Shown: positions 31,355 through 34,764 of the stretch, piece by piece
Position numbering within the stretch: position 1 is the stretch's first letter
Layout: every line of letters starts with the position of its first letter
Source of the DNA: Methanosarcina flavescens
Lineage (GTDB): Archaea; Halobacteriota; Methanosarcinia; Methanosarcinales; Methanosarcinaceae
Assembly: GCF_001304615.2 (NCBI RefSeq)
Contig: NZ_CP032683.1
Span: 1,674,001-1,738,000, forward strand
Direction of reading: 5' to 3'
DNA: 64,000 bases
The notes under the pieces: generated by a model
What the model saw: only the letters and a program-made list of their open reading frames with translations
Database searches by the model: none
What the model was told of the DNA's origin: nothing
Program-made: the position numbers and the translations under genes

Positions 31355-32311
31355 TTATACTAATCTCTCCCCAAGTAATGCTCTTGCCGTCTCCCTCACA
31401 CTTCTCTCCGATGAATAGACTGGCTTCCATCCCAAAGCTTTCATTTTCTCAATCCCTAGCCTCATCCTTGGCACATCGCCTTTCCAGCCTCTGCTTCCTC
31501 CAGTATAAATAAATTTAACATCAGAAAGCCCCATCTCTTCTATGACAGCTTTTCCTATCTCTGTTGCACTGATGGTATCCTCGGAACCAATATTGAAAAT
31601 ATTTACTTTATCTCTGCTTTTCTCTATTAAAAATATTATTGCATCAACACATTCCGATACGTGAAGGTAGGATTTTTCCTGTTTGCCATTGCCCAGAATT
31701 TCAAGTACATTGGAGTCTTTCTCCAGTTTCTTTATGAAATCTACCGTGATTCCATGTGTACTGCGTGGACCAACAATATTCGCAAAACGAAATATCCATG
31801 CCCGCATATCGAAAGTGTGGGAATATGAAGTAATAAGGGCTTCACAGGCCAATTTGGAGGCACCATAAAGGGATATAGGAATAAGAGGACCGTAATCTTC
31901 CGGAGTTGGCATAACACTCGCCTCCCCGTACACAGTTGAGGTAGAAGTAAATGCAATTTCTTTAACGCTGTTTTTCCTCATAGCTTCCAGAAGATTGTAG
32001 GTAGCCAGAATATTCTGATCCAGATGAACTCTAGTATCCGTGGCTCCTAACCTGACATCAGGATTTGCAGCCACATGGCAAACAATGTCAATATTTCTAC
32101 AGGCGGCCTCTATAGCTTCCTGGTCAAGAAGATCTCCTTTTATCAGAGTAAAATCCGGATTTTCGAGATGATGTTCTATAAACTGTAATTTCCCTGAACT
32201 GAGGTTATCAAAAACAGTAATCTTACTTCCTTTTTCAATTAAGCGGTCTACAAGGTGGCTCCCTATAAAACCGGCTCCTCCTGTCACAAGTATTTTATTC
32301 TTTGTAGGCAT
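31355..32311 (-). CDS. GalE-like NAD-dependent epimerase/dehydratase
   Basis: 318-residue extended short-chain dehydrogenase. The NAD motif GGAGFIGSHLVDRL is at residues 10-24, the catalytic Ser-Tyr-Lys appears as TSTSTVYGEAS and then SLYGASK (about residues 122 and 148), and the C-terminal part is sugar-binding. Closest by pattern to archaeal UDP-glucose/UDP-GlcNAc 4-epimerases. It would give UDP-Gal or UDP-GalNAc. GGAGAA lies six bases before ATG 32311. It is divergent from galU with about 200 bases between. Whether it prefers the N-acetylated sugar cannot be seen from sequence. Confidence 0.88.
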   Translation of the reverse strand: MPTKNKILVTGGAGFIGSHLVDRLIEKGSKITVFDNLSSGKLQFIEHHLENPDFTLIKGDLLDQEAIEAACRNIDIVCHVAANPDVRLGATDTRVHLDQNILATYNLLEAMRKNSVKEIAFTSTSTVYGEASVMPTPEDYGPLIPISLYGASKLACEALITSYSHTFDMRAWIFRFANIVGPRSTHGITVDFIKKLEKDSNVLEILGNGKQEKSYLHVSECVDAIIFLIEKSRDKVNIFNIGSEDTISATEIGKAVIEEMGLSDVKFIYTGGSRGWKGDVPRMRLGIEKMKALGWKPVYSSERSVRETARALLGERLV

Positions 32312-32507
32312 GAAAAGTTCTCCAGATAATCTTTCATTCCATATATTTTATAATGTGTTAAAATAATCATGATTTGTTCTTACCCCATTCTCTACATGAG
32401 TCTAGGGAGATAATGATGGAAAAATTAAAGATGTTATGGTTGAAAAAGTACTTTAATCCAACTGTAAGAATAACCTTTTCACAAGATATTCTATCGGAGG
32501 GTTTATA

Positions 32508-33395
32508 CTGACTGTTAAAAAAGCGCTTATTCCGGCTGCCGGACTTGGAACCCGCTTCCTGCCTGCCACCAAGTCAATGCCAAAAGAGATGCTTCCTATT
32601 ATTGACACACCTGTAATCCAGTATGTTGTAGAGGAAGCCATTGCATCGGGAATTGAAGATATTATCATTATTACAGGCAGAGGTAAAAGGGCAATTGAGG
32701 ACTATTTCGATGATTCCCCTGAACTCGAGATGCACCTTGCGAAAAAGCACAATACTGAACTTCTAAAGCTTGTAAGGGATGTTTCCTCTCTTGTGGATAT
32801 TCACTATATCCGACAGAAAGAACCCAATGGACTTGGAGATGCAGTCCTCAGAGCAGAAAACCATATTGGAAATGAGCCTTTCGCCGTGCTTCTAGGGGAT
32901 GATATTATTGTGAATGACAAACCCTGCACGGCTCAACTCATTGATAATTTTCAGAAATATGGAAGGTCCACACTCGCAGTGGAAGAAGTTCCTTATGAAA
33001 AGTTGAGCAGCTATGGAATTATAAAAGGAAAGCCTCTCAACGATTCTCTTTATGTACTGGAGGATATTGTCGAAAAACCATCACCTGAGAACGCTCCTTC
33101 CAATATAGGTGCCATAGGGCGCTACGTTTTCACCCCTGAAATCTTTGATTGCATAAAAGAAGCTGGAACCGGTGTGGGAGACGAAATTCAGTTGACTGAT
33201 GGAATCCGACTCCTCAATAACACCCAGACAATCTACGCTTGCAGGTTCGAAGGAAAAAGATTTGACACCGGTGACAGGCTCGGGTATGTAAAGTCGATAA
33301 TTGACTTTGCTCTTAAAAACGAAAGTCTTAGAGAGGATGTACTTGAGTATCTGAGAGATATTCTGGTAACGGTGGATGACCCCTCTGACAAATAA
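32508..33395 (+). CDS. galU: UTP-glucose-1-phosphate uridylyltransferase, apparent CTG start
   Basis: Makes UDP-glucose from UTP and glucose-1-phosphate. 295 residues if started at CTG 32508. The obligatory nucleotide-binding motif, IPAAGLGTRFLPATKSMPKE, begins at residue 8 and lies almost wholly before the first in-frame ATG (32577). From the upstream stop at 32454 to that ATG there is no ATG, GTG or TTG in frame. GGAGGG at 32496-32501 is six bases before CTG, an ideal distance, so I infer initiation at CTG. Later motifs are normal: LGDDIIVND, VEKPSPENAPSN, GRYVF, RFDTGDRLGY. It supplies the UDP-glucose dehydrogenase encoded next, on the opposite strand. Confidence 0.9.
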   Translation: MTVKKALIPAAGLGTRFLPATKSMPKEMLPIIDTPVIQYVVEEAIASGIEDIIIITGRGKRAIEDYFDDSPELEMHLAKKHNTELLKLVRDVSSLVDIHYIRQKEPNGLGDAVLRAENHIGNEPFAVLLGDDIIVNDKPCTAQLIDNFQKYGRSTLAVEEVPYEKLSSYGIIKGKPLNDSLYVLEDIVEKPSPENAPSNIGAIGRYVFTPEIFDCIKEAGTGVGDEIQLTDGIRLLNNTQTIYACRFEGKRFDTGDRLGYVKSIIDFALKNESLREDVLEYLRDILVTVDDPSDK

Positions 33396-33480: not shown

Positions 33481-34764
33481 TTACCAGCAGAGGCCTTCAT
33501 AATCTACTTTTTTCGAATTAATTACCTTTCTTCCGTCAATTACTATCTTTTCTTTCATGGCTTCAAATTCGGAATCAAGCTGTTTGAATTCATCCCACTC
33601 TGTCATTACGAGGCAAGCGTCAGTTCCCTGAAGAGCATCTCTAGCTTTTCCAAAGTATTCAACTGTCGGAAAGATCCGCCTCATATTCTCGATTGCCATA
33701 GGGTCATAAGCTGAAACCTTTGCCCCAAGCCTGAGGAGCTCGGCAATGACAGGGATAGCTCTGGATTCCCTTATATCATCTGTTTCGTTCTTAAAAGCAA
33801 GCCCAAGGACTGCAACCTTTTTTCCCTCAAGGTTTCCAATTTTCCTCTGAAGTATCTCGGTCATTAGAATTGGCTGTTTTTCATTTACTTCAATTACAGA
33901 TTCCAAAAGTACTGGAGAATATCCGATTTCTTTCGCTTTTCCTATAAGCGCCTTTACATCTTTTGGGAAACAGGACCCTCCAAATCCCACACCTGAGTTC
34001 AAAAATTTAGGGGATATTCTGGAGTCTTTACCTACGGCTTCCATAACCTCATATGTATTAATTTTTAATCTTTTACAGATATTTCCAATCTCATTGGCAA
34101 AAGATATCTTAGTTGCAAGAAGAGAATTATTTGCGTATTTGATCATCTCTGCTGTAGATGGATTTGTGCGGGTGACTCCACATTTAAAGGTTTCGTAAAG
34201 TTTCGAGACAAGGTCTCCTGATTTCTGATCAATTGCTCCAATGACTATTTTATCTGGATTCATGAAGTCGTAGACTGCTTTCCCTTCCCTGAGAAACTCG
34301 GGATTCATTGCAACTCCAAAGTCTTTTCCAGCTATCTTCCCTGAAGATTCTTCAAGCAAGGGAATGACAAACTTCTCAGTTGTCTCAGGCACAACTGTGC
34401 TTTTGACAACAACTACGTGGTATCCTTCTTTTTTTGCCAGGACTGCTCCTATGCTTGTTGTCGCCGCACGGACAATTGAAAGGTCTATGCTTCCATCTTC
34501 TGCTGAGGGAGTTCCTACACATATAAAGGAAATATCCGTCTTCCTGATTGCAGATTCATAGTCAGTGGTTGCTGTAAGATTTTTTCCGGCATGTTTTTGT
34601 AAAAGCTCTCCTAAGCCTTCTTCATAGATAGGAGGGATTCCTTCGTTTATCTGATCCATTTTTCTCTTATCAATATCCACGCAGATCACTTCATGCCCGA
34701 CTTCTGCAAAACATGCGGCTGTGACTGAGCCCACATACCCTGAACCTATAACGGAAATTTTCAT
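33481..34764 (-). CDS. ugd: UDP-glucose 6-dehydrogenase
   Basis: 427-residue enzyme that oxidises UDP-glucose to UDP-glucuronate with two NAD. The N-terminal Rossmann motif is VIGSGYVGSVTAACFAEVGH (residue 5 on), the middle domain has KSTVVPETTE and NPEFLREGKA, and the catalytic cysteine lies in GVGFGGSCFPKD (about residue 265). NETDDIRESRA marks the C-terminal domain. I start at ATG 34764 with GAGGTT upstream; the open frame runs 14 codons further without a good site. It is convergent with galU, so the two are not one operon but probably one pathway. UDP-GlcA is a precursor of methanochondroitin and other archaeal glycans. Confidence 0.93.
   Translation of the reverse strand: MKISVIGSGYVGSVTAACFAEVGHEVICVDIDKRKMDQINEGIPPIYEEGLGELLQKHAGKNLTATTDYESAIRKTDISFICVGTPSAEDGSIDLSIVRAATTSIGAVLAKKEGYHVVVVKSTVVPETTEKFVIPLLEESSGKIAGKDFGVAMNPEFLREGKAVYDFMNPDKIVIGAIDQKSGDLVSKLYETFKCGVTRTNPSTAEMIKYANNSLLATKISFANEIGNICKRLKINTYEVMEAVGKDSRISPKFLNSGVGFGGSCFPKDVKALIGKAKEIGYSPVLLESVIEVNEKQPILMTEILQRKIGNLEGKKVAVLGLAFKNETDDIRESRAIPVIAELLRLGAKVSAYDPMAIENMRRIFPTVEYFGKARDALQGTDACLVMTEWDEFKQLDSEFEAMKEKIVIDGRKVINSKKVDYEGLCW

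Follow-up and report, generated by a model that had tools for sequence, protein, structure and literature searches.

The window analyzed here comprises 64,000 nt of a Methanosarcina genome (positions 1674001-1738000 of G000, a single contig of 3,283,688 bases); the sister genome, G015, has 3,127,379 bases. The gene galU for UTP--glucose-1-phosphate uridylyltransferase is located on the forward strand at positions 32508-33395 of the window and encodes 295 amino acids between a proposed CTG start codon (32508-32510) and a TAA stop codon (33393-33395). The translated protein matches the TIGR01099 profile with 376.4 bits (curated cut-off 326.8) over positions 1-260 of 261, and by this whole-protein match the product is GalU, with a predicted enzymatic activity. 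A genome search found one locus matching galU at E <= 1e-30 in G000, and six further stretches match PF00483. The divergently transcribed neighbor (31355-32311, reverse strand) belongs to the NAD-dependent epimerase/dehydratase family (PF01370), whereas the convergent neighbor (33481-34764, reverse strand) encodes a nucleotide sugar dehydrogenase similar to UDP-glucose 6-dehydrogenase (TIGR03026, above the cut-off). A polysaccharide-flippase-like gene is also found close to galU.

The galU reading frame is closed upstream by an in-frame TAA codon (32454-32456), and from this codon to the first in-frame ATG (32577-32579) the window sequence contains no ATG, GTG, or TTG in that frame. The first ATG falls after the conserved motif AAGLGTRFLPATKS, within the conserved GalU N-terminus, and is an unlikely start. 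Both observations agree with the preliminary description of this DNA, which had claimed that the frame lacks a standard start between the upstream stop and the motif, and that the essential motif precedes the first ATG. The description had also placed GGAGGG six bases before CTG 32508 and the peptide TVKKALIPAAG directly after it; on re-reading, the order is indeed GGAGGG (32496-32501), TTTATA, CTG, and the codons for T-V-K-K-A-L-I-P-A-A-G. The GGAGG part of this Shine-Dalgarno (SD) sequence pairs with CCUCC at the 3' end of 16S rRNA, which reads GGATCACCTCCTAA. Base shuffles yielded 19% of sequences that likewise lack ATG, GTG, and TTG over 40 codons, and such an absence is not rare in itself. 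The part beyond chance is the position of the start, as judged by the other 35 copies in the genus, which carry TTG (34) or GTG (1) in the CTG column and, in the 34 copies scored, a GGAG-type core 7-8 bases upstream. The galU gene shows both features looked for in a near-cognate start, namely no standard in-frame start ahead of the conserved N-terminus, and an SD at normal spacing together with orthologous starts in the same column.

The genus search covered 30 genomes, 27 of which have a galU match at E <= 1e-100, giving a total of 36 copies. Their start column contains TTG in 34 copies, GTG in one (G014), and CTG in one (G000), so the alignment of the start region across relatives, proposed earlier as a check, places the CTG in the TTG/GTG start column of the genus. 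TTG is also the start in the genera g21 (4/4 copies read) and g2 (1/1). Elsewhere in the family, the starts are GTG (13), ATG (9), and TTG (1) in g5, ATG (10) in g24, ATG (8) and TTG (3) in g3, and ATG (1) and CTG (1) in g7; in these aligned sequences, ATG or GTG prevails beyond Methanosarcina, g21, and g2. Three rows outside the main reading pattern (L130, L145, and L164) were read separately as TTG, ATG, and ATG, respectively. In the galU copy of G035, the start column contains CTG, yet a TTG lies in frame 30 bases ahead of it, and for this reason the copy was left out of the support. Among the 35 genus copies scored for the SD core, GGAG at spacing 8 was found in 31, GAGG in two, and GGAGG in two (G000 and G015), giving the G000 gene one paired base more than most relatives. 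Since GGAGG is common to G000 and its TTG-bearing sister, the longer SD may predate the CTG codon. By parsimony, the galU CTG is a single T-to-C change from the weak TTG of the genus, which took place on the branch leading to G000.

The galU CTG is known from one genome, where it depends on a single base in a single assembly, while the other 35 copies carry TTG or GTG. A sequencing or assembly error, with T as the true base at 32508 and the ordinary TTG of the genus as the start, is nonetheless improbable in our estimate: the assembly consists of a single contig with an estimated completeness of 99.99%, the galU frame is undisturbed, and CTG occurs in other start columns of G000 in agreement with relatives (aIF1A loci L424 and L458; DUF5817 locus L279), so that CTG as such is not foreign to this genome.

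Comparison of galU from G000 with four relatives gave dN/dS values of 0.076, 0.029, 0.040, and 0.036, and by this measure the gene is under purifying selection. Such values, together with the intact frame, argue against a start-loss mutation after which galU would be translated not usefully or just weakly and would have begun to decay, although a very recent loss would escape dN/dS. Initiation at CUG is generally weaker than at UUG, and the change is confined to G000, as a start loss would have it. The SD is intact, however, and the galU-like match at E <= 1e-30 is single in the genome; we consider this explanation unlikely, somewhat more so than an assembly error. Over the 22-codon stretch separating CTG from ATG 32577, the four relatives show 3, 6, 9, and 9 synonymous and 1, 0, 0, and 0 non-synonymous differences, respectively. 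A start at ATG 32577 would not account for this constraint, and the N-terminally cut protein would lose the conserved nucleotide-binding motif. Other candidates for a different start are AUA 32505 and AUC 32493, codons that fill the start columns of other genes in the genus; the former, however, lies just three bases past GGAGGG and the latter ahead of the SD. Moreover, the TTG of relatives aligns with CTG, whereas the preceding codon is variable among them (ATA, ATT, ATC, ACC, ACT, TTC, and TTA). A start at any of these three positions appears very improbable, the least probable of the alternatives considered.

The region upstream of galU contains a TATA-box-like stretch ATATATTTTATAA (32341-32353, forward strand), which was picked by eye as a putative promoter, and an upstream open reading frame (ORF) of 32 codons (32413-32511, forward strand) that begins with ATGATG preceded by GGGAG and ends with a TGA overlapping the galU CTG. 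This arrangement might allow translational coupling, in which ribosomes ending the upstream ORF at TGA would reinitiate on the overlapping CTG and thereby aid the weak start. The frame is also open in G015, and the three differences between G000 and G015 in its first 24 codons are all synonymous, as coupling would suggest. On the other hand, the final part of the peptide differs even between these two genomes, the frame ending at the TGA spans only 1 to 27 codons in other relatives (versus 49) and is broken up there by insertions and deletions, and galU has its own intact SD. We hold coupling to be improbable, about as much so as an assembly error. The galU leader aligns across the genus with insertions and deletions, and no common reading frame is kept; owing to the short frames and this scrambling, it behaves like non-coding DNA. 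The idea that the upstream ORF encodes a conserved leader peptide was rejected, since the frame is open in just G000 and G015. No support for a structured RNA leader was obtained in the region 32460-32560 (fold z-score -0.13), nor for a known one, as the best Rfam match, snoU43 (20.6 bits, E 0.62), falls short of the gathering score of 45.

The preliminary description offered two alternatives, that CTG starts galU at the cost of lower expression, or that the start was mutated. The comparison gives good support to CTG as the start, whereas the either/or does not hold: the two are not exclusive, as the codon is a start mutated from TTG that probably continues to serve as CTG. We consider it likely that galU is a working gene translated from CUG 32508, which is placed by an SD, is one T-to-C change away from the UUG of the genus, and occurs in a lineage that tolerates and frequently retains near-cognate starts. 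In the proposed mechanism, pairing of the GGAGG SD would position the 30S subunit and set CUG 32508 in the ribosomal P site, where Met-tRNAi would accept CUG despite the first-position mismatch, and initiation would take place with methionine. The output of galU would then depend on the stringency set by initiation factors, and the gene may respond to this stringency in the way that Streptomyces sigR responds to IF3. Lower galU expression from CUG is plausible, and any decrease would be relative to a UUG that is weak to begin with, rather than to AUG.

Other near-cognate starts were sought by a rough codon-usage scan, which looks for a coding signal before the first ATG, GTG, or TTG. Start losses had escaped a pairwise comparison of G000 with G015 alone, since alignments at this divergence extend into untranslated leaders as well. 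The scan covered 800 kb of G000, and candidates were then read in relatives. It flagged 5/261 genes in G000 1506001-1906000 and 8/231 genes in G000 1-400000; a self-trained version flagged 4/240 and 8/209 genes and missed the DUF5817 gene. Six of the 13 flagged genes were read in relatives (galU, HPS, CbiG-like, DUF5817, MinD/CooC-like, and DUF362), and two others (1898543-1898914 and 254183-254755) look by eye like broken fragments. Further ORFs flagged on the G000 contig, which may be near-cognate starts, fragments, or chance hits, are 369845-370837, 97356-98093, 268958-269962, 269878-270801, 1679-2302, and 280056-280394. In G015, 4/233 genes were flagged, namely HPS, the CbiG-like gene, a probable broken ORF, and a gene with ATA where its G000 orthologue has ATG. 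The latter (G015:C1:2189244-2190797, forward strand), which we take to resemble an isopropylmalate/homocitrate synthase, lacks a standard start for 88 codons. In a control genus (G033, 400 kb), the single flagged gene of 213 was aIF1A with CTG (L390:10449-10793). In 50 kb of E. coli K-12 holding pcnB, which has an ATT start, none of the 30 genes was flagged. The first standard codon of pcnB is merely 11 codons in, and this missed positive control means that the scan undercounts and that its flag rates are not frequencies.

A widely conserved CTG in the start column was observed for aIF1A. Within the family, its start column contains CTG in 59, TTG in 4, and ATG in 3 of the 66 loci read (71 loci among the matches listed), with all ATG rows belonging to the genus g22. 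The count was restricted to NTG codons preceded by an SD core; of the five loci left unread by it, three, also from g22, show ATG. The three aIF1A copies of G000 (L424, at G000:C1:2276089-2276277 on the reverse strand, L457, and L458) carry CTG twice and TTG once. Outside the family, in the wider class (L507-L526), CTG was read by eye in 19/20 loci, L522 being unread, behind an SD of the GGTG-, AGGT-, or GAGG-type. A standard in-frame codon lies further upstream in three of these 19 CTG rows (L513, L516, and L518) and in some family loci (e.g., L412, L419, and L420). Starts of aIF1 were viewed in 6 of the 29 loci above the cut-off and are ATG in each.

Several other genes are characterized by near-cognate codons at aligned start positions. 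The gene for a hexulose-6-phosphate synthase/RraA fusion (HPS, NF005442; G000:C1:1651886-1653172, reverse strand) has ATA (15), ATC (13), or ATG (1) in the start column, or is shifted by one codon (1), in 30 Methanosarcina loci (L220-L249); AUA or AUC thus occurs in 28/30 loci, behind GAGGTGAT or AAGGTGAT, and a standard in-frame codon lies further upstream of the near-cognate one in two of the 30 (L236 and L246). A MinD/CooC-like ATPase gene (PF01656; G000:C1:386879-387718, reverse strand), for which the label CooC reflects a presumed resemblance, has ATA in the start column of all 29 loci (L329-L357), preceded by an SD of the GGGGGA or GGAGGG type; in two of these loci (L332 and L338), a standard in-frame codon lies further upstream. 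In the DUF5817 gene (G000:C1:1755718-1756251, reverse strand), one column contains CTG (17), ATG (9), or ATA (1) in 27 loci read of 30 (L279-L308), and 16/17 CTG loci have no standard in-frame codon upstream. The DUF362 ferredoxin-like gene (G000:C1:236568-237674, forward strand) has ACG (9) or ATG (12) at one column in 21 loci read of 28 (L358-L385). In the CbiG-like gene, all 27 loci read have ATA, and the remaining two of the 29 likewise show it at this position; this AUA overlaps the preceding gene, as seen by eye, and is a weaker case, since the overlap may fix the codon. Altogether, these alignments suggest that near-cognate starts (CUG, AUA, AUC, and ACG) are tolerated and often kept in this lineage, CUG in aIF1A being the most notable, and the wider pattern appears to be a more interesting part of the results than galU alone.

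Speaking against a CUG start, surveys of start codons found CUG to be rare, and one of 2,468 ancestral UUG starts was reported to have switched to CUG, in a study whose available text also describes stronger SDs accompanying GUG and UUG starts (PMC5622118). The accessible text of a review of archaeal initiation names AUG, GUG, and UUG as starts, and CUG is absent from that text (PMC7531240). According to the available part of a 2021 review, non-canonical translation in archaea has been demonstrated just for elongation and termination (PMC8211752). No published description of conserved near-cognate starts in these archaeal genes was found among the titles and abstract openings listed by searches of open-license papers. 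If CUG, AUA, AUC, and ACG do start real conserved genes of methanogens, gene finders limited to ATG, GTG, and TTG would truncate or miss them, and natural targets would be at hand for testing the fidelity of archaeal start-codon selection. With a CUG start of aIF1A kept across families, feedback on initiation stringency in archaea would become a concrete question.

The conserved CUG of aIF1A may fit feedback of this factor on its own synthesis. A broader model, which we find possible but hold with less than even confidence, is that a conserved set of genes in Methanosarcina and related members of the class is translated from near-cognate codons under start-codon stringency, with aIF1A feeding back on itself through its CUG, and HPS, MinD/CooC-like, DUF362, DUF5817, and, as a recent addition in this species, galU following its level, as an archaeal counterpart of control by infC/IF3. 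In E. coli, infC and pcnB have near-cognate AUU starts, and infC, for which feedback is known, resembles aIF1A in being an initiation-factor gene. Bacterial IF3 is, however, not aIF1A, and for the latter feedback is a conjecture. Conservation of the codon, as expected under control of the infC or sigR type, was observed for the aIF1A CUG, unlike the galU CUG, which is present in 1/36 genus copies, whereas a weak non-AUG start is present in 36/36.

Among initiation factors, eIF1 is described in the accessible text of PMC6237735 as autoregulating through an AUG in poor context, and aIF1 as destabilizing complexes on non-AUG mRNA. The likeness to aIF1A would be that of an initiation factor feeding back on its own start fidelity; the difference is that eIF1 uses a poor-context AUG, whereas the CUG of aIF1A is preceded by a good SD, the start of aIF1 being ATG in the six loci viewed. 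Streptomyces sigR, as presented in the available text of PMC5472188, likewise works from a near-cognate start, the weakness of which may be the regulatory point. The effect of its GTC codon and repression by IF3 were demonstrated there by experiment, whereas the galU case is known from sequence; in addition, sigR is a regulator, whereas galU encodes an enzyme and has CUG in one species only. In support of CTG as a start, among 314 unannotated small ORFs of M. mazei, a member of the same genus, 5% were assigned CTG by Ribo-seq, according to the accessible part of PMC11456600; these ORFs encode up to 70 amino acids, whereas galU encodes a conserved enzyme of 295 amino acids.
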